The translations under genes and the position numbers were made by a program. A stretch of DNA of 44,646 bases from Bacteroidales bacterium (lineage in GTDB: Bacteria > Bacteroidota > Bacteroidia > Bacteroidales > FEN-979): NCBI GenBank assembly GCA_014860625.1, contig JACZJJ010000142.1:1-44646 (forward strand), written 5' to 3'. Below, piece after piece: positions 5,829 to 38,694 of this stretch (its first letter is position 1; each line of letters starts with the position of its first letter). The notes beneath the pieces were generated by a model, which saw only the letters and a list, made by a program, of their open reading frames with translations, ran no database searches and had not been told where the DNA came from.

Positions 5829-6065
5829 TTATTTCTTACCTGGATCTTCCTTAGCTGGTTTTGCTGCCGGTTTGCCATGTGAACAGCAAGAGCTTGACGT
5901 CTTGGCTTTTGAACAATCGGTCTTCTTGGCGCAATCAGTTTTTGATTTATCAGTCTGTTCAGTCTTGGCAGGTTCTGTCTTCGTTACAGGTTTTTGTGGC
6001 TCCTGTGCGAATGACATGCCAACAATGAATAAAAATGTTGCGATTAAAATAGCTGTTTTTTTCAT
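5829..6065 (-). CDS. Small secreted Lys/Cys-rich protein, function unknown
   Basis: This 78-residue product has a clear signal peptide (MKKTAILIATFLFIVGMSFA, cleavage before QEPQ) and a short, low-complexity mature part of about 58 residues dominated by Lys, Pro, Thr and Ser. It has four or five cysteines arranged as DCAKKTDC and SSSCCSHG. No domain is recognisable. Low-complexity Lys-rich exported peptides with CC motifs may bind metal or anionic envelope polymers, but that is speculation. It has its own TATATTTG promoter element and its own terminator, so it is a separate transcription unit, which supports a real gene. Confidence 0.7.
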   Translation of the reverse strand: MKKTAILIATFLFIVGMSFAQEPQKPVTKTEPAKTEQTDKSKTDCAKKTDCSKAKTSSSCCSHGKPAAKPAKEDPGKK

Positions 6066-6113
6066 GTTAATTTCGAATTTATAGGTTTTACTTTAGACTC
6101 AATTTAGATAACG

Positions 6114-6121
6114 CAAATATA
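6114..6121 (-). promoter_or_regulatory. -7 element for the small Cys-rich protein gene
   Basis: On the minus strand the bases read TATATTTG, a full consensus match, 48 nt upstream of the ATG at 6065. Confidence 0.55.
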
Positions 6122-6164
6122 TAAATAAAAGTGCATACATGGATGAGAAAACAATTAAAAAATG

Positions 6165-8093
6165 TTAATCGCCATGTTTAATGCCAAAAATGGCCTCTTT
6201 TACGATGGCACGAAAGGCGGCTTTTTCGAAGGGTTTGGCAATGTAGTGTGTACACCCTTCGGCAAGCAGTTTTTCCCTGTCACCGAGCATGGTATAGCCT
6301 GTCACAGCAATGACAGGAGTCTCTTTATACCCTGGAATCTTTTTGATTTTTTTGGTAGCTTCAATGCCATCAATACCAGAACCCAGGTTGATGTCCATCA
6401 ATACGGCATCATACTTCTTCTCAGTCGCCATTTTTACGGCAGTTTTTCCGTCGTATGCGTGTTCCATCAGGTACCCGGGCTTCAGAAAGAGCTCAATCAG
6501 GTTTCTGTTGATCATGTTGTCCTCAACAAGCAAAAGCAATGGAGTTTCTCTCACATTTTCCGTCGATGCCGGCTCATGCGAGCGATCAGTCTCCGCCGTG
6601 TCGGGAACAATCTGTTTCTCTGTTTTCAAAGAAGGTAGCCATATCGTGAAGGTTGATCCTTTCCCCGGGATGCTGTCAACCGAAAGCTTTCCACTCATCA
6701 GATCACAAATCCTCCGGCTGATTGTCAGCCCCAGTCCACTGCCCTGAAACTTCCGGTCATAGCCTTCGCTCGCCTGGCGGAACTCCTGAAAGATCATGTC
6801 GAAAAATTTCGGCTCAATGCCTACCCCTGTATCTTCAATCTCAATTGTTTGCCACGGAATGTTGTCCTTCATCACTGTTTTGGCCCGAATCGTAATCCCA
6901 CCTTCCCGGGTGAATTTAATGGCATTGTCAACCAGTTGATAAAACAGCTGTTTGAACAGCGGAAGGTCGGTATAGACGACAAACTCTTCCGGAATTTCTC
7001 TCCGCAGTGTGAGTTTTTTTTCCTCTAAGTGATCTTCAAACTGTTTGCAGCTGGTTTCAATGACAGAGACCAAATCGAGGTGTTTGAACACCATCGTTAC
7101 CTTGCCTGCCTGAAGTTGTGAAAGGGTGATGATCGCGTTGAGTGTTGACATCAGCCTTCTTCCCGAAAGATAAATGTTTTCGATCATCGGAAGGTATTCC
7201 GTCTCTTTGAGATCCTCCTGAAGCAGTTCCGAAAACCCCAGGATGCCATTTAAGGGAGTTCGAAGTTCATGACTGATATTGGAAAGAATGGAGGTCTTGA
7301 GACGGTCCGATTCCTCAGCCTTTTCTTTCGCCAGGATGAGCTGCTGCTCGTAGGTCTTCTTCTCTGTTACATCGCGGGCTACCATGAAAAGGTATTGTTC
7401 GCCGAAAAGAGTTACAAACTTCCCGCTTACCCGGATCTGGATAATGGTGGTATCGTCTCTTTCCCAGGAGGTCTCAATATCATGAAATTCCTTTACCTCC
7501 ATGGTTTTCAGATCGTGTTTGCTGAGAGTTTCCTTTAAATCGATGCTCTGGATAAATCTCCTCCCTGAAGTTTGCAGGATCTCTTCCCTCGTGTGGCCCA
7601 GAAGATCAACGGCAGCCTGGTTTGCGTCGGCAATGGCAAAGTCGGAAAGCCGGATCAGCAGGATTGCGTCATGTGCTGTTTCGAACACTGCATGATATTT
7701 GATCTCGCTGCGCCGGATTGTTTCACGGGTCTTCTCCATCCGCTTTGTAATCCGCGCCAGCAGTTCATCGAAATCAATCGGTTTGGTGATGTAGTCATCC
7801 GCTCCCAGGGTCATCCCATACAAGATATCTTCCCGCTCGGCTTTTGCGGTTAGAAAGATAAACGGAATGAGAGAGGTGTTCACATCGCTTTTCAGCTTTT
7901 CGAATGTCTCATACCCATTCATTTTAGGCATGAAGATGTCGCAGAGGATCAGATCAGGCAACTCCCTGGATGCCAGTTCAACTCCCTGCTTACCATTCTC
8001 TGCCTCTATGACCTCCATGCCCTCCTCCTGGAGAAATTCCGCCAGGCTCTCCAATAGAATGGGGTCATCCTCAATAATCAGAATCTTGCTCAT
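6165..8093 (-). CDS. Hybrid sensor kinase: receiver - PAS - histidine kinase - receiver
   Basis: A soluble 642-residue two-component protein. The N-terminal receiver (residues 1-120) has the acidic pair E8/D9-D10, phospho-acceptor D52 and K104. A PAS domain (about 130-245) follows, then a HisKA domain with SHELRTP and H275. The HATPase_c domain has N-box VDNAIKF near 388-394, DTGVGI near 421 and GSGLGL near 451. The second receiver (about 518-640) has phospho-acceptor D567 and K-P near 621. With no membrane segment it must take its input from its first receiver or the PAS ligand. Its start overlaps the end of the upstream membrane kinase by 23 bp, so the two are translationally coupled and probably form a phosphorelay. 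No DNA-binding output domain is present. Confidence 0.95.
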   Translation of the reverse strand: MSKILIIEDDPILLESLAEFLQEEGMEVIEAENGKQGVELASRELPDLILCDIFMPKMNGYETFEKLKSDVNTSLIPFIFLTAKAEREDILYGMTLGADDYITKPIDFDELLARITKRMEKTRETIRRSEIKYHAVFETAHDAILLIRLSDFAIADANQAAVDLLGHTREEILQTSGRRFIQSIDLKETLSKHDLKTMEVKEFHDIETSWERDDTTIIQIRVSGKFVTLFGEQYLFMVARDVTEKKTYEQQLILAKEKAEESDRLKTSILSNISHELRTPLNGILGFSELLQEDLKETEYLPMIENIYLSGRRLMSTLNAIITLSQLQAGKVTMVFKHLDLVSVIETSCKQFEDHLEEKKLTLRREIPEEFVVYTDLPLFKQLFYQLVDNAIKFTREGGITIRAKTVMKDNIPWQTIEIEDTGVGIEPKFFDMIFQEFRQASEGYDRKFQGSGLGLTISRRICDLMSGKLSVDSIPGKGSTFTIWLPSLKTEKQIVPDTAETDRSHEPASTENVRETPLLLLVEDNMINRNLIELFLKPGYLMEHAYDGKTAVKMATEKKYDAVLMDINLGSGIDGIEATKKIKKIPGYKETPVIAVTGYTMLGDREKLLAEGCTHYIAKPFEKAAFRAIVKEAIFGIKHGD

Positions 8094-29080: not shown

Positions 29081-29908
29081 TCAGTCCTCCTCTTTCACTG
29101 CCAGCTGTTTCCTGTCGTGGATCCTGCCGGAGACGCCAACACTGAATTCGAACAGCAGGTAGAGTGGGATGGCTACGATCAGTTGTGAAAAGATATCAGG
29201 GCTGGGAGTAATAACCCCTGCGATGATCAGAATCGCAATCAGGGTGTGTTTCCTGTATTTTTTAAGGTATGCCGGCGTAATGATACCCGCTTTGGTGAGG
29301 AAGATCACCACGATAGGCAGCTCAAAGAGGAGCCCCATCAGCAGTGTCATCATCGTGACAGATCCGGTGTATGACGAGAGTGCGATCTGGTTTATGACCA
29401 TCTCACTTACCTGGTAACCTCCCAGAAAGTTAACCATCAGCGGAACGACAATAAAGTAAGAGAAGAGGATTCCTGTCAAAAAGAGGAGAGAGATCACGAA
29501 AACCCCTCCGCGGGCGCTTTGTACCTCGACAGCCGTAAGCCCCGGCTTGATGAATCTCCAGAATTGATAAACTACAAACGGCATGGCAACAATCAGCCCG
29601 GCAACAAAGGAGATCGTCATGTGCGACATGAACTGTCCGGCCAGACTGATATTGATGATTTGAAATGAGGATGGGTCGATGCAGAGGGATGTCATCGAAG
29701 TGACTTCGGCCAGTTTGCAAAGAAACCGGTAGGTGATAAAGGTTTTCTCCTTAGGTGCAAGTAAAATATGGTCGAACAAAATCTCTTTATAGACAAAGGC
29801 TACGATGCCGCATGCTGCAATCGCTACAACGCTCCATATCAGGGTGCTCCGGAGTTCATCCAGGTGCTCCCAGAAAGTCATTTCACGAACATCCTTCGTT
29901 TTACTCAT
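29081..29908 (-). CDS. tatC: Twin-arginine translocase subunit TatC
   Basis: TatC is the signal-recognition subunit of the Tat system for folded proteins. The 275-residue protein starts MSKTKDVREMTFWEHLDELR, the conserved cytoplasmic N-terminus with the FxEHLxELR motif and essential Glu. Six membrane helices follow. The conserved loop PFVVYQFWRFIKPGLTAVE near 125-143 is present, and so is the GIITPAYLKKYRKHTL loop. The larger periplasmic loop between TM1 and TM2 (about 40-90) is longer than in E. coli, as in other Bacteroidota. tatA lies 8 kb away on the same strand. Its start codon sits within a heptamer array, so the ribosome-binding region is made of repeat sequence. Confidence 0.95.
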   Translation of the reverse strand: MSKTKDVREMTFWEHLDELRSTLIWSVVAIAACGIVAFVYKEILFDHILLAPKEKTFITYRFLCKLAEVTSMTSLCIDPSSFQIINISLAGQFMSHMTISFVAGLIVAMPFVVYQFWRFIKPGLTAVEVQSARGGVFVISLLFLTGILFSYFIVVPLMVNFLGGYQVSEMVINQIALSSYTGSVTMMTLLMGLLFELPIVVIFLTKAGIITPAYLKKYRKHTLIAILIIAGVITPSPDIFSQLIVAIPLYLLFEFSVGVSGRIHDRKQLAVKEED

Positions 29909-33086: not shown

Positions 33087-34129
33087 AATGAATGTCAATA
33101 CCAGATTGGAATATTCAGCTCGGGCATGATGCCGCCGGCTGGATGGAGTATCAATGGCTTACCTGCTCAATGGTCAGTTAGTGCTACCAACGAAGCCAGT
33201 GGTGAGGTTCCTGAAGCAAAATTCACCTATGTTAGCGGTACTTCTGTGACCCGGCTGATCTCCTATGAAATCGATCTGACCATCAACAATTCTGATGTTG
33301 GTGAAGATGAATTCCAGATCTGTTTCTACCTGGATGGAAACATGTACAACATCGACTTCTGGTACCTGGATGACATCCTGCTGTTGAACCAGCTGAACCT
33401 GGATGCCAGTATGACCGGCATTTCAACTCCTACTTACATCAACGGACCTGAAGATGTTACCGGGCAGATCATGAATGTTGGCCTCACGACCATCACTTCA
33501 CTGGATATGGACTGGCAGGTGAACAACGGCCCGATTCAGAGCACCTTCATTGACGGCCTTTCCATCAACTCGCTGGATACATACAACTTTACATGCGATC
33601 AGCAGGTGGCCGTTCCTATAGGAACCTATACACTCAACGTGTGGATCAACAAGGTGAACGGAGTGAAGGATGATGACCAGTCGGGCGACTCCCTTTCGAA
33701 ACCGTTGATTCGTGTGAGCAATGTCATCCCGAAGAAGCCCTGTTACGAAGAATTTACCAGTTCCACCTGTGCACCGTGTGCCAGTTTCAACACAGGGTTT
33801 GTTTCATGGTGCTGCATGTCATTGTTTTTGAGTACCTGACAGCTCATAGTGTGTACGAGATTGATCTGATCTTTGCCGTTGGCCAACAAGAGAACAGCCT
33901 TGAAGCCATGCGTGTGTATCCCAATCCGACATCCGGGACCATTTATATCATGGGTGCACAGAACACGAGGGTATCTCTCTATTCGCCCAGTGGAACGCTG
34001 GTAAAATCGGTTGAGATCTTCAATGCCCCCTCATTCAACATTCCTGATGTTTCTAACGGGGTCTATATGCTGCGGGTTGAACGCACGAACGGAACTGTAA
34101 TTCAGAAGAAAATTGTGGTTGTAAAATGA
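33087..34129 (+). pseudogene. Decayed T9SS cargo gene (anchor J - CARDB-like - Omp28 remnant - sorting domain)
   Basis: The frame from 33087 has no start or signal peptide and enters mid-domain with MPPAGWSINGLPAQWS, the tail of a choice-of-anchor J domain (WYLDDILLL). A CARDB-like beta domain follows (NLDASMTGI to PLIRVSNV). Then comes EEFTSSTCAPCASFN, the diagnostic start of an Omp28-related thioredoxin-like domain, which breaks off after about 20 residues at a stop (33837-33839). In another frame, from about 33860, an intact T9SS type A sorting domain appears (MRVYPNPTSGTIYI to KKIVVVK, ending 34129). Thus the 5' end, most of the Omp28 domain and the frame are lost. Neither open part can make a secreted protein alone. 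Confidence 0.85.
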
Positions 34130-34149: not shown

Positions 34150-34180
34150 GGGGTGTCTCTTATGTTGAGGCACCCCTTTC
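34150..34180 (+). terminator. Hairpin terminator between convergent genes
   Basis: A 10-bp stem GGGGTGTCTC/GAGGCACCCC (one G-T pair) with a TTATGTT loop is followed by TTTCT. It sits 20 nt after the sorting-domain stop codon and 18 nt before the end of the convergent DsrE-like gene. Confidence 0.65.
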
Positions 34181-34197
34181 TATATCATGGAGATCAA

Positions 34198-34698
34198 TCA
34201 GGTAAAGATGATCTGGGTCTGGAGGCCACCGCACATTTCATAAAACTCACCGATTGTAAGCACACCTTTTACACCATCCCACAAATCGGTTTTCTCCAGT
34301 TTGAACATGTCCATAGCCAGTTTGCAGGCATAGATCTCACCTCCGCCGGCTTCGATCATCTCGAGAAATTCGGAAACGGGAGGAATATCCAGCTTTTCCA
34401 TTTGGCTCCGCATCATGGCCGACACACCTGCTTCAACACCGGGAAGGGTTCCCAGCAGAGTGGGGAAGGGGAGTCCGCCGGGCATGCGCATGGCAGGATT
34501 GCCAATCGTCCCGGTCTTCAGGCTGTTCATGAATTTTTTCGTGATGCCATCCAGTCCGAAGAAGGTGAAAAAGACTTTGGTCTCTATTCCTTCCATCACG
34601 GCACCATTGCTCATCACAAGGGTTGCATATACATCCTCAATGGTGCCCTTGGCACAGATGATGCATACTTTTTTCAGGGGATGTTCTTCTTTTGTCAT
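34198..34698 (-). CDS. DsrE/DsrH-like sulfur-relay family protein
   Basis: A 166-residue DsrE-fold protein: KKVCIICAKGTIEDVYATLVMSNGAVMEGIETKVFFTFFGLDG (strand, helix, strand) at the N-terminus, an insertion with RMPGG and LPGVEAGVSAMMRSQM, and the conserved motif GGGEIYACKLAMDMF near residue 115 with the candidate persulfide-carrying Cys. The form with the helical insertion is the DsrE2/DrsH-like type found with sulfur-oxidation and sulfurtransfer genes. It is the last gene of the module with the TusE/DsrC-like gene 48 bp upstream, consistent with passing persulfide sulfur between the two. Confidence 0.88.
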   Translation of the reverse strand: MTKEEHPLKKVCIICAKGTIEDVYATLVMSNGAVMEGIETKVFFTFFGLDGITKKFMNSLKTGTIGNPAMRMPGGLPFPTLLGTLPGVEAGVSAMMRSQMEKLDIPPVSEFLEMIEAGGGEIYACKLAMDMFKLEKTDLWDGVKGVLTIGEFYEMCGGLQTQIIFT

Positions 34699-34746
34699 TT
34701 TTTTCTTTTTTATAAGAGAGCCGCAGTGAATTGCGGATCCTGATTG

Positions 34747-35058
34747 CTATACACACGACGCCGGCTTCGGAATCCCGGCGATTTTGGCGGCCTTTTTCAT
34801 TGGAGCACCGGGGAAAAGCTGGTAGAATCCTTTGATGTCAATGATTCCTGAGTTGCCGACTGAACGGATGGTAATGCTTTCCGAGTTGGCTTGTTTGTTG
34901 CGAATAAATTCACAAACAGCCAGGTGTTTGTCTGTGAGGTCGATGTTCTCCTCTTTGGCAATCTCCCTGGCAATTTCTTTGGTCCACTGAGAGGCATCAG
35001 TCATGTATCCCTCTTCATTTACGTCAACAGTGGTTCCTGCATAAACTTTTTGTGACAT
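34747..35058 (-). CDS. TusE/DsrC-family sulfur carrier protein
   Basis: The 103-residue protein has the TusE/DsrC fold and the C-terminal swinging arm IAGIPKPASCV with the penultimate Cys102 that carries persulfide. In true DsrC a second Cys lies 11 residues earlier in the arm (CRIAGLPKP); here that position is Ala, so the protein cannot form the trisulfide of dissimilatory sulfite reductase and is a single-Cys TusE-type carrier. Conserved elements include VDVNEEGYM, WTKEIAREIA and FYQLFPGAP. No dsrAB genes are visible. It starts under a promoter overlapped by a CRP/FNR-like palindrome. Confidence 0.9.
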   Translation of the reverse strand: MSQKVYAGTTVDVNEEGYMTDASQWTKEIAREIAKEENIDLTDKHLAVCEFIRNKQANSESITIRSVGNSGIIDIKGFYQLFPGAPMKKAAKIAGIPKPASCV

Positions 35059-35066
35059 AACAATTC

Positions 35067-35094
35067 AATTTTAGATTTACAATTTTAGATTTAC
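35067..35094. repeat. Two copies of AATTTTAGATTTAC (2 x 7 nt units)
   Basis: A 14-nt direct repeat in the leader of the dsrC-like gene, which can be read as alternating AATTTTA and GATTTAC heptamers. GATTTAC also occurs upstream of pdxJ. Confidence 0.7.
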
Positions 35095-35107
35095 GATATT
35101 TTGATCA

Positions 35108-35125
35108 TTGTGAATAGAATCACAA
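35108..35125. promoter_or_regulatory. Perfect TTGTGA-N6-TCACAA palindrome (CRP/FNR-like operator)
   Basis: The 18-bp site is a perfect inverted repeat with the classic CRP-family half-site TGTGA. It overlaps the -7 element of the dsrC-like gene (CAAATATA on the plus strand, 35123-35130). The position over the start region suggests repression rather than activation (inference). Confidence 0.6.
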
Positions 35126-35130
35126 ATATA
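35123..35130 (-). promoter_or_regulatory. -7 promoter element for the TusE/DsrE genes
   Basis: On the minus strand TATATTTG, full consensus, 64 nt upstream of the ATG at 35058. No TTTG -33 element is seen. Confidence 0.55.
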
Positions 35131-35166
35131 AAAAGATATTTTTAAGTATCTATATAATTACGTATA

Positions 35167-35748
35167 TTATTTTTTATTTATCTCTTCCAGAAGTCGCAAC
35201 GAATAACTCAGTGATTTACGAACCTCTTTGGACCGCATCTGTTTGAACAGCTGCCAGAAGGATTTGTCGTCCAGTTTGTCATCCATCCTGACATCCGCGA
35301 TGGCTTGAGACATCTTAACAAAGGCATCCACCGTATCTTTGTTGGTCAGGTTTTTGCCGATGGTTGTGAAGCTCTCCAGGTAGCCTTTTTCATCCAGCTC
35401 ATGCATTTTATTGATGACATCCAGTCCAACCTGACGGATGATAGGACTCAGATCCTGTGCAAGATCCTTGGCGCTCTCCATCAGTTCAACCATCTCTCCA
35501 AATGTGCTGAGATTCCGAACCAACTTGATCAAAAGGCATTGAATGCCGCACGGGTCCAGTTCGATACCGGCTTTATCAAGAGCGGATACGGTACTGTTGA
35601 AGGCATCTTTGGATATCAGGGAGACATCTTTTATAAGGTCATCCAACTCCTCCTGTTTCCGGTGCTGGGTCTCAACGAATTCGAGAACTCTGTCCAGTTT
35701 ATGGCTGAGTTCATCGATCTGTTCCTGTATGTTCTTTTCTTCCATCAT
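35167..35748 (-). CDS. DUF1641 domain protein
   Basis: A 193-residue mostly helical protein. The first 50 residues form an amphipathic coiled-coil stretch (IQEQIDELSHKLDRVLEFVETQ), followed by a helix bundle with LDPCGIQCLLIKLVRNLSTFGEMVELMESAKDLAQDL around 67-108, the part that places it in DUF1641. These proteins are frequently encoded beside SQR-like or formate dehydrogenase flavoproteins. Here it follows the SQR-like gene by 8 bp, so it may be an accessory or membrane-docking subunit of that flavoprotein. Function is not known. Confidence 0.85.
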   Translation of the reverse strand: MMEEKNIQEQIDELSHKLDRVLEFVETQHRKQEELDDLIKDVSLISKDAFNSTVSALDKAGIELDPCGIQCLLIKLVRNLSTFGEMVELMESAKDLAQDLSPIIRQVGLDVINKMHELDEKGYLESFTTIGKNLTNKDTVDAFVKMSQAIADVRMDDKLDDKSFWQLFKQMRSKEVRKSLSYSLRLLEEINKK

Positions 35749-35756
35749 CCAATGTG

Positions 35757-36986
35757 TTAGAGTTTCTTACCGGCCATGGTCATCTTGGAGTCAATTGGCA
35801 TCTCTTTTCCCTTGAGAAGTATGTGCCAGTAAATCCAACGGAAGAGCAGTTTGCCGTAGTGGTTCATGCGGGTCTCCTGCAGCAGTCCGAACGGCCCGAT
35901 GCCCGGAAGCGGAAATAATCCGGGCAGCGGCTCTGTATCGTAATTGAAATCGATCAGCGCTCCTTTCCCAAAGCCTGTCTCAATGTAACAGTTGGAATGC
36001 CCGTCGTAAGACGCCGTGAAAGGCCTGTTCTCGATAGCGCACAGAAGATTCTCCGTCAGGATATCGGCCTGGAAATGGACCACCGATCCGGCTTTCGAGG
36101 TGGGGAAGTTTCCGGCATCGCCAAGGACAAATACATTCGGGAAATCTACGGATTGGAGGGTGTGCTTGTCTGCCTTCACAAATCCCATGTCGTCGCCTAA
36201 TCCACTTGCTTCAATCACCTCATCTCCTTTGTGGACAGGGATCGAAATCAGTACGTCATATGGAACCTCACGCTCATCGTAGGAGATGAGTTTCTTCGCT
36301 TCGCTGTCAACCCGTTCCAGGTAGAAGTCGGGGATGATCTTGATGTTCTTATCCTCCAGCATGGCTCCCAGAACCTTTGCTGCACGCGGTTTGGTAAACG
36401 CACCCGACATCGGGGTTACATAAGAGATGTTGACCTTGTTGCGAAGTCCGCGTTCCACAAAAAAGGCATCCGCGAAGAAGACAAACTCCAGGGGGGCAAC
36501 CGGACATTTGATAGGCATATCGGCGATGTTCAGGACCAATTCGCCTCCCTGCCAGGTCTTGAAAAAGTTAGCCAGTGCGATCGCTCCGTCGGGGGTGTAA
36601 AAATCAAAAATGCTCTTTTTCCACTCAGGGCCAAGCAATCCCGGAGTCTCTTCGGGTACCACACGGGTTCCGGTGGCGATCACCAACAAATCATACTTCA
36701 GTACAATTCCGTCTGCCAGTACTACCAGGTTGTTTTCCGGATCGATCTTGTCAATCTTCTGGATGATCAGGTTAACTCCGAAAGGGATGAAGTTGTTCTT
36801 TGGCTTGACAACATCCTGTTTTTTGTAATGCCCAAAGGGAATAAACAGAAATCCGGGCTGGTAGAAATGGGTCTTTTCCCTGTCCACCACAGTGATTTCC
36901 CACTCATCCCTTTCCAGTTCATGCCGCATCTTGTTAGCCATGATGGTACCGCCTGTACCACCACCTAAAATCAAAAGTTTTTTCAT
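35757..36986 (-). CDS. Sulfide:quinone oxidoreductase-like flavoprotein
   Basis: A 409-residue FAD-dependent oxidoreductase. FAD binding is shown by LLILGGGTGGTIMANKM (GxGxxG near residues 8-13) and the second site ATGTRVVPEETPG near 104. The conserved cysteines C161 (IKCPVAPLEF) and C333 (SNCYIETGFG) are 172 residues apart, as is the redox-active pair of archaeal SQR, so sulfide oxidation to polysulfide is likely. The FAD/quinone tail has NVFVLGDAGNFPTSKAG. A C-terminal amphipathic stretch (WIYWHILLKG) could dock on the membrane. It leads an operon with DUF1641. Alternative: an SQR-like protein of other thiol substrate. Confidence 0.85.
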   Translation of the reverse strand: MKKLLILGGGTGGTIMANKMRHELERDEWEITVVDREKTHFYQPGFLFIPFGHYKKQDVVKPKNNFIPFGVNLIIQKIDKIDPENNLVVLADGIVLKYDLLVIATGTRVVPEETPGLLGPEWKKSIFDFYTPDGAIALANFFKTWQGGELVLNIADMPIKCPVAPLEFVFFADAFFVERGLRNKVNISYVTPMSGAFTKPRAAKVLGAMLEDKNIKIIPDFYLERVDSEAKKLISYDEREVPYDVLISIPVHKGDEVIEASGLGDDMGFVKADKHTLQSVDFPNVFVLGDAGNFPTSKAGSVVHFQADILTENLLCAIENRPFTASYDGHSNCYIETGFGKGALIDFNYDTEPLPGLFPLPGIGPFGLLQETRMNHYGKLLFRWIYWHILLKGKEMPIDSKMTMAGKKL

Positions 36987-37181: not shown

Positions 37182-37418
37182 TTATCCGGCCGGATCTGTG
37201 GGAGGAGTCTTTTTCTCAGAGGTAGGTTTATCCTTTGAGATATCTTTTATCTCATCATCCATTCCCTGAATGCCATCTTTGAAGCTTTTCACACCTTTTC
37301 CGACGCCTCTCATCAGCTCGGGAATTTTTTTACCGCCAAAAAGCAACAGCACGACAAGAACGATCAGGATGATCTCCGTAGTGCCAAGTCCGAATATTAG
37401 AAACATATCATTGAACAT
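37182..37418 (-). CDS. tatA: Sec-independent translocase protein TatA/E
   Basis: A 78-residue single-pass protein: short N-terminus with [39 protein letters not shown], i.e. the TatA transmembrane helix, the conserved FGGKKIPEL hinge and the amphipathic helix, then an acidic/Lys tail. TatA forms the pore complex with TatC (8 kb away). The ATG at 37418 is preceded by AAGGAGGAG, a strong Shine-Dalgarno sequence unusual in Bacteroidota, which decides the start against a longer frame reaching 37499. Its own TACCTTTG promoter element lies at 37444-37451, just after queA. Confidence 0.92.
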
Positions 37419-37443
37419 GGTCTCCTCCTTGTTTGATTCGATA

Positions 37444-37451
37444 CAAAGGTA
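37444..37451 (-). promoter_or_regulatory. -7 promoter element for tatA
   Basis: On the minus strand TACCTTTG, full consensus, between the queA stop at 37474 and the tatA ribosome-binding site. Confidence 0.55.
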
Positions 37452-37473
37452 ATAAAAAACATTTCTATGTTTG

Positions 37474-38694
37474 TTAGTGAAGAAACAAACAGCTGTCACC
37501 GTAACTCAGAAACCTGAATCCGTTTCTTATGGCCTGTTGATACACCTCTTTCCACTTCTCTCCCAGAAATGCGGCAATCAGCATCAGCAGGGTGCTTCGG
37601 GGTTGATGAAAATTGGTGACCATCCCTGTGATCATCCGGAACCGGTACCCGGGAATGATCATCAGCCGGGTGGAAGCTGTGATGTGAGTAACTCTTGTTC
37701 GTTCCATCCTCAGGAGCAACGCCTGAAGGGCAACCTCGACGGGAATAAGCGGGTTACCGGTTTCAATGTACGGATCCCACTGACCGATATCAGTCGGGGA
37801 TGATTCGGGATGATTGATTTGCCTGACTCCAAGCCAGTACAGACTTTCCAGTGTCCTGACGGAGGTTGTTCCAACGGCAATGACCGGATTCGGAATATGG
37901 GCAAGCAGATGCCTGATTGTTCCGGCCTCTACAATAATCTGCTCCTGATGCATCACATGTTCCGACAGGTTGGTGGTGGAAACCGGCCTGAATGTCCCCA
38001 ACCCGACATGCAATGTAACCTGTTCCTTCAGGATGTTTCTTTTGGAGAGACTCTCCATCACGTTGGAGGTGAAATGCAGTCCGGCGGTAGGAGCTGCCAC
38101 CGATCCCTCCTGATGGGCATAGATGGTCTGGTAACGCAGGATATCTTCTGCCTCATCTTCTCTGGAGATATAAGGTGGGAGTGGGATCCTGCCTGCCGCT
38201 TCAAGAACTTCCCCGAACCTGAGCCCGCCATCCCAGGAGAAGAGCACGGAGAAGGTCCCGTCGTCCATGTCGCCTGTTCTTTCAGCATGGAGGGTAACAT
38301 CAGCTCTGGAAACAGTTATTTCCATCGTCAGCATTCCGCTTTTCCATCGTTTGGCATTCCCGATCAGGCATTTCCATGTAACCGGACTGTCTTGCTGAAA
38401 CGCCTGATTGATCTCACGGGTAGGCTTGATGGGCTCCAGGCAGAAAACCTCGATATGTGTTCCGCTTGCTTTCTGAAAAATCAGCCGGGCCCGTATCACT
38501 CGGGTGTTGTTAAACACCATCATGCTCCCGGGTTCGAGGTAGTTTGCAATATTGTTGAACGTCTCTTCCCGGATTAAGCCTCCAACCGAACAAATCAACC
38601 GGGAGGCATCCCGCTCAGGTAACGGATGCTGGGCAATCCGGTCGGTGGGAAGATCGTAGGCGTAATCTTCTATATTTATCTCGGGAATCATCAT
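37474..38694 (-). CDS. queA: S-adenosylmethionine:tRNA ribosyltransferase-isomerase
   Basis: QueA transfers and isomerises the ribosyl group of SAM onto preQ1 in tRNA, the penultimate step of queuosine synthesis. The protein (406 residues) has [22 protein letters not shown] at the start, [14 protein letters not shown] near 60, the [18 protein letters not shown] segment near 196 and [12 protein letters not shown] near 227, all family hallmarks. It is longer than the E. coli enzyme by about 50 residues, as other Bacteroidota QueA are. Two adjacent ATGs (38694, 38691) are possible starts. It is divergent from pssA. Confidence 0.95.

Follow-up and report, generated by a model that had tools for sequence, protein, structure and literature searches.

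A predicted sulfide-oxidation operon of Bacteroidota combines a type III sulfide:quinone reductase with one-cysteine DsrC and DsrE-like sulfur carriers

The nearest described operon that we found is that of Methylacidiphilum fumariolicum SolV, in which a type III sulfide:quinone reductase (SQR) is followed by a TusA-like carrier and a DsrE2 protein and which, according to PMC10205796, is about 1.7-fold upregulated in sulfide-adapted cells; the same source presents type III enzymes as the least known SQRs. The rDsr relay of Allochromatium vinosum consists of TusA, DsrEFH and DsrC, and sulfur transfer from DsrEFH to Cys111 of DsrC is described as demonstrated (PMC3397948), while in cable bacteria a type II DsrEFH is described as passing sulfur to DsrC one way in vitro (PMC13293266). 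The ForCE formate:menaquinone oxidoreductase of Bacillus subtilis has a DUF1641/ForE gene beside a dehydrogenase gene (PMC8808070; PDB 8rqz). Here we analyzed a 44,646-nucleotide stretch of a Bacteroidales bacterium (contig JACZJJ010000142.1, hereafter the window), which corresponds to contig C36 in a draft genome of 3.77 Mb (171 contigs, 96.8% complete) and carries adjoining genes for a type III SQR, a DUF1641/ForE-like protein, a one-cysteine DsrC-family protein and a DsrE-family protein. Like the SolV operon, this gene set joins a type III SQR to a sulfur carrier and a DsrE2-like protein, but the carrier is TusA-like in SolV and a one-cysteine DsrC in the window, which also adds the ForE-like protein. 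It resembles the rDsr relay in having a DsrE-family candidate donor and a DsrC-family candidate acceptor, and differs from it in having a single DsrE gene instead of DsrEFH and in that DsrAB was not found in the genome. The ForE partner is a molybdenum formate dehydrogenase in ForCE and the SQR flavoprotein in the window. The gene set recurs across Bacteroidota and in some relatives stands beside a second unusual sulfur cluster. Among the literature matches listed, with subscription papers and preprints largely outside the coverage, we found no description of this operon.

The four open reading frames (ORFs) all lie on the minus strand between 36986 and 34198 with gaps of 8, 108 and 48 bp (Table 1), as had been described in an earlier account made from the letters alone (the sequence-only reading), and every residue named there was found: C161 and C333 of the SQR, C102 of the DsrC-like protein and the YACK motif, containing C125, of the DsrE-like protein. 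All four genes are kept in the same order and on the same strand in 72 of 80 related loci, far above chance, so the module is real and not a chance arrangement; in the remaining eight the contig end falls within or just after the module. One locus with the four genes, L063, comes from Maribellus sediminis Y2-1-60. In a scan of the phylum, DsrC and DsrE genes adjoined SQR in 23 of 30 further loci, and the seven without them all belong to one family, f19, which is treated separately below. Residue conservation was read from alignments of 109 SQR, 85 DUF1641, 97 DsrC and 82 DsrE sequences, query included, restricted to hits that start by query residue 12 and whose ORF ends inside the locus, truncated hits being excluded.

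The SQR matches NF049943 (SQR_III_seleno) over its full length, residues 2-408, with 642.1 bits against a cut-off of 525. All 109 aligned SQRs have C161 and C333, and a phmmer alignment places these two on chain positions 161 and 339 of human SQOR, which we renumbered by adding 40 to Cys201 and Cys379, the two residues that form the SQOR trisulfide (PMC12589024). The SQR identity and cysteine pair proposed in the sequence-only reading are thereby borne out, with the family now specified as type III. For the selenoproteins of NF049943, a review lists the selenocysteine (Sec) motif HxxU (PMC13188914); the corresponding residues in the window SQR are H330-x-x-C333, and because C333 occupies the position of Sec it is very likely a redox residue. 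A selenoprotein reading of the window SQR was rejected, since it has Cys at the Sec position and neither internal stops nor a tRNA-Sec were found: all 96 over-cut-off NF049943 matches listed from the phylum scan are free of internal stops, and the best of 11 sub-threshold tRNA-Sec hits in the genome scored 42.3 against a gathering score of 47. The three best of these 11 hits were checked with ARAGORN and were called tRNA-Ser, tRNA-Ser and tRNA-Trp.

The DsrC-like protein scores above the cut-offs of both PF04358 (89.8 bits) and TIGR03342 (74.5 bits). C102 is kept in 97 of 97 aligned proteins, and the position of the second DsrC cysteine, which is A91 in the window, holds Thr in 39, Ala in 38, Ser in 20 and Cys in none, confirming the alanine that had been noticed there. 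The window copy, with C102 only, thus lacks the two C-terminal cysteines by which Dsr-pathway DsrC is recognized. PMC3397948 states that where an organism lacks DsrAB the second position is almost always Ala, Ser or Thr, and names Methylococcaceae, Marinobacter and Lawsonia as exceptions. The DsrE-like protein scores 89.8 bits with PF13686, above cut-off, and its C125 is kept in 82 of 82 aligned proteins.

To see how SQR and DsrC are distributed, 395 sampled Bacteroidota genomes were searched, with the two-cysteine DsrC of a second cluster in the window genome (contig C19, see below) as the DsrC query, which a very divergent DsrC may escape; SQR exceeded its cut-off in 95 genomes and DsrC was matched in 100. 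Family f19 (86 genomes), which is probably Chlorobiaceae as judged from a single genome (G063, with dsrA beside dsrC), was separated by hand before counting. This left about 309 genomes, about 271 of them without SQR, the figures being approximate because 21 matchless genomes are unlisted. Outside f19, a DsrC gene lies directly downstream of SQR on the same strand in all 38 SQR genomes, from 18 families, and DsrC occurs in only 3 of the roughly 271 genomes without SQR (Fisher p 1.4e-45, uncorrected for phylogeny). Within f19, DsrC lies within 5 kb at only 5 of 58 SQR loci. With the Pfam DsrC model, one of 14 control genomes was positive (E. coli), and the Bacteroides control was without DsrC. 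Outside f19, DsrC-family proteins of the sampled Bacteroidota are almost exclusively SQR-operon proteins.

The window copy of the second gene scores 13.6 bits with Pfam DUF1641, under the cut-off of 21, so the DUF1641 assignment made earlier falls short for this copy, though four of five syntenic orthologues exceed the cut-off (L010 fails). A profile (A1) of 34 sequences, made from 33 of 65 usable orthologues and the window copy, gave a single match at E <= 0.001 against PDB sequences, which was ForE1 (8rqz, E 1.4e-5), among seven at E <= 1. In Bacillus ForCE, ForE is described as needed for formate:menadione activity and menaquinone reduction and as most likely binding menaquinone (PMC8808070). 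Because the profile matches this menaquinone-linking protein, the DUF1641 protein is probably a ForE-like quinone partner that helps SQR to reach menaquinone. Our search found no literature pairing DUF1641 with sulfide quinone.

The second sulfur cluster of the window genome lies at 3178-17534 of contig C19 (L122, G000:C19). It begins with a Crp/Fnr-family gene, a NifX-like gene (under the Pfam cut-off), a class V aminotransferase and a two-cysteine DsrC (DsrC2; 5976-6293, ending ...GACRVAGLPKPDGCV), followed by a membrane protein that is weakly HmcE-like (29.9 bits, cut-off 275) and that we label DsrM-like, and by a DsrK/HmcF/TmcB-like protein (best 311.7 bits, no equivalog cut-off reached). 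It continues with a cysteine desulfurase, a DsrE-family protein, TusA and an MvhD-like protein, and ends with two HdrA-like proteins, the first of them bearing a GltD-like NAD(P)H domain, and a QmoC-like protein (188.9 bits against a cut-off of 300). TusA and the two-cysteine DsrC are shared with the rDsr relay as it is described in PMC3397948. When the genomes of 50 of the 80 related loci were searched, a C19-type DsrC was found in 12 at 69-87% identity, with both cysteines in 12 of 12, and in five relatives (L184, L185, L187, L188 and L190) the cluster comes immediately after the SQR module. Of the 13 loci, L122 included, six extend through TusA and Hdr to QmoC; in L180, L182, L183, L184, L187 and L189 the stretch continues past the cysteine desulfurase without TusA, Hdr or QmoC genes, and the L191 cluster ends at a contig edge. 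The loci therefore share a core of DsrC2-DsrM-DsrK-cysteine desulfurase, to which the Hdr/Qmo part is an optional addition. The sHdr pathway is, we assume, also marked by a lipoate-binding protein; our comparison with it rests on the HdrA-, MvhD- and QmoC-like genes of C19. The shdr set itself is given as hdrC1B1A-hyp-hdrC2B2 (PMC12345210).

As the sequence-only reading had proposed, dsrAB and soxB were looked for elsewhere in the genome. PF01077 gave no match and no soxB match was found in this draft, in which a miss is possible, and a complete dsr or sox system was rejected on these grounds. The dsrA model TIGR02064 likewise found nothing in the window genome or the 12 relatives (drafts) that carry DsrC2, and was positive in G357 and G063. 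These genomes, with a two-cysteine DsrC and no DsrAB, thus add to the exceptions to the rule, as stated in PMC3397948, that the second cysteine goes with DsrAB. At 5919-8788 of L156 (G369:C13), DsrM- and DsrK-like genes also follow a two-cysteine DsrC; G369 has no dsrA match and its genus-mate G357 has dsrA.

We consider it reasonably probable that the four genes form a sulfide-oxidation operon in which a type III SQR works with a ForE-like menaquinone link and sulfane sulfur is passed to the DsrE-like and then to the DsrC-like carrier. In this mechanism, the SQR would oxidize sulfide at the membrane through its C161/C333 pair and flavin adenine dinucleotide (FAD), and the electrons would go to menaquinone, aided by the ForE-like protein. 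The sulfane sulfur would leave C333 and move first to the DsrE-like protein, at C125, and from there to C102 of the one-cysteine DsrC-like carrier, a direction proposed because A. vinosum and cable bacteria transfer sulfur that way. The protein-bound sulfur would then be used or disposed of; export or buffering may be its fate in most members, and in this clade it may possibly enter the DsrAB-less DsrC2 cluster. In the window genome and some relatives, the C19-type cluster, with its two-cysteine DsrC, DsrMK/Hmc-like, TusA, DsrE and Hdr/Qmo-like proteins, is a candidate acceptor. From the gene families, residues and synteny observed, we infer what the enzyme does, how it is linked to quinone, in which order and direction sulfur moves and that it is handed on to the C19 cluster. 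Several observations count against this operon model. The activity of the SQR is predicted from its sequence. The DsrE-like protein stays under the cut-off of the DsrE2 equivalog NF047629 (98.4 against 210 bits), and no DsrFH partner was seen beside its gene. The AlphaFold model of the DUF1641 protein is poor (mean predicted local distance difference test 68.2, predicted template modeling score 0.25), so the ForE link rests on sequence comparison. In 28 of the 38 sampled SQR genomes the SQR-DsrC distance is only 33-110 bp with no DUF1641 gene between, and DUF1641 is therefore not essential in all members. Finally, only 13 of 51 SQR-module genomes examined (that of the window and the 12 of 50) have a two-cysteine DsrC, so that downstream sulfur use must differ in most.

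That so many of these genomes, many of them drafts, yielded no two-cysteine DsrC (38 of 51) also favors an explanation by detoxification only, in which the SQR-made polysulfide or elemental sulfur leaves the cell and the DsrC and DsrE proteins sense or buffer sulfane sulfur, the former as a regulatory one-cysteine DsrC, with no pathway fed. A divergent Crp/Fnr-family gene adjoins SQR in 44 of 74 loci that have an upstream gene, and 30 of the 44 corresponding upstream regions contain a TGATN4ATCA box (shuffle mean 0.74), which would suit such a regulatory role. The invariant C102 and C125 and the tight co-occurrence with SQR fit a transfer role, and in subsets of relatives the module stands beside NrfD, YedE and rhodanese genes or the DsrC2 cluster; we regard detoxification only as rather unlikely. 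Far less probable is a Tus-type relay for tRNA 2-thiouridine, in which the DsrC-like protein would be TusE and SQR merely its sulfur supplier. The protein does pass TIGR03342, a family that also contains TusE, and its one-cysteine tail is as expected outside DsrAB organisms under the rule of PMC3397948, but it reaches only 59.2 bits with the TusE equivalog NF008562 against a cut-off of 191. A PF02635 search of the genome gave two hits and no adjacent TusBCD triple, a search that was insensitive, as it missed the DsrE-like gene of the window itself, and that did not include the TusB family. Bacteroidota without SQR should also thiolate tRNA, and the presence of DsrC in every non-f19 SQR genome as against so few without SQR disfavors this role; TusE and tRNA thiolation were rejected as the leading explanation on these two grounds, the equivalog score and the co-occurrence.

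A sulfur-reducing setting, in which sulfide made by a polysulfide or thiosulfate reductase is re-oxidized in an internal sulfur cycle, also appears improbable for the window. Rhodanese-like and YedE-like genes lie beside or near the operon in 11 of 111 loci, with NrfD in 10 and a molybdopterin subunit in 7, the families having been verified on L035 only. The window genome, however, has no YedE match, no rhodanese, YedE, NrfD or molybdopterin genes stand beside its operon, and its two NrfD genes are located elsewhere, with no link to sulfur made. YedE import was likewise set aside, as the window genome gave no YedE match. The sulfide-oxidation operon with its DsrE-to-DsrC relay thus agrees with the sequence-only reading in that sulfide is oxidized and sulfane sulfur goes to DsrE- and TusE-like carriers, for which family, residue and synteny evidence speaks; the thiolation of tRNA offered there as one use of the sulfur is disfavored. 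The further statement that the module does not serve Dsr-type respiration agrees with the failure to see a complete dsr operon but is too strong, as two-cysteine DsrC, DsrMK/Hmc-like and Hdr/Qmo-like genes are present on C19 and contiguous with the SQR operon in the five relatives.

Two promoter groups had also been proposed for the operon, and these found no support: sigma-70-like hits were at chance (5 against a mean of 4.9), and the DUF1641-DsrC gap, which measures 108 bp in the window, is 32 bp at the median across 80 loci. A scan with what we take to be the Bacteroidota-type promoter pattern gave three hits in the window, all away from the operon. TTGTGA-N6-TCACAA occurs in 3 of 80 DUF1641-DsrC gaps, namely in the window and its two nearest relatives (L003 and L004); in L016, L017 and L009 this gap is filled by short tandem repeats such as CAGGATACAGGATG and CTGGATAA. 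TGATN4ATCA, which presumably resembles an FNR site, is found in 5 of 33 such loci other than those with the divergent regulator (shuffle mean 0.24) and in 2 of 30 phylum-scan loci. The 30 relatives with this box and a divergent regulator have it in place of the palindrome that lies upstream of the window SQR gene (Table 1). The Crp/Fnr family was assigned by Pfam in L035 and L122 only; the window has no such gene beside its operon and a homologue on C19. Only 10 of 53 regulators have CxxCx3-8C near the start, leaving an iron-sulfur sensor unsupported. Terminator-like sites in the window are near shuffle level (4 against a mean of 3.2).

Table 1. Coordinates of the operon genes and nearby sequence features in the window
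Feature	Position	Strand	Remarks
Type III sulfide:quinone reductase, 409 aa	35757..36986	-	NF049943; redox pair C161/C333
DUF1641/ForE-like protein, 193 aa	35167..35748	-	Probable menaquinone-linking partner of SQR
One-cysteine DsrC-family sulfur carrier, 103 aa	34747..35058	-	C102; A91 replaces second Cys
DsrE-family sulfurtransferase, 166 aa	34198..34698	-	C125 in YACK
Palindrome TTACATAT-N2-ATATGTAA	37048..37065	.	Upstream of SQR gene; candidate operator
Palindrome TTGTGA-N6-TCACAA	35108..35125	.	Upstream of DsrC gene; candidate CRP/FNR-type operator
Terminator-like inverted repeat	34150..34176	reported on +	10 pairs, 7 G-C; just beyond DsrE gene end

Around the operon, a TatA-like gene (37182-37499, by eye) lies directly upstream of SQR and a TatC-like gene (29081-29908, by eye) on the opposite side; members of the TatC-like ORF cluster are present in 23 of 111 loci. 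At 33126-34129, two plus-strand ORFs overlap in different frames and look by eye like one frameshift-split secreted protein with a tail of the type IX secretion system (T9SS) type. Elsewhere, a YedE-half protein and a rhodanese-like protein are encoded beside or near the SQR operon at L035:121-5123 and similarly in L034, L038, L049, L053, L054, L056, L057, L062, L079 and L080; most of these stretches have NrfD, and seven have molybdopterin and iron-sulfur subunits.

These observations bear on how sulfur genes of Bacteroidota are read. Since DsrC outside f19 is almost only an SQR-operon protein in the sampled genomes, it is misleading to annotate it there as TusE or as a marker of sulfate reduction. 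For type III SQRs, the operon provides a candidate quinone partner, and the linked DsrC2-DsrMK-like cluster without dsrAB breaks the published rule, for which PMC3397948 already lists a few exceptions. Tentatively, and as a possibility that we hold to be doubtful, some Bacteroidota may have a DsrAB-independent dissimilatory sulfur pathway, in which SQR sulfane sulfur would pass via DsrE and one-cysteine DsrC onto two-cysteine DsrC, whose disulfide or trisulfide would be turned over by the DsrMK/Hmc-like membrane complex and, where present, the Hdr/Qmo-like complex with its NAD(P)H domain. If true, this route would join rDsr and sHdr as another sulfane-sulfur system. The module supplies genes with which sulfur use can be tested in Bacteroidota whose habitats appear to be lakes and marine sediments.

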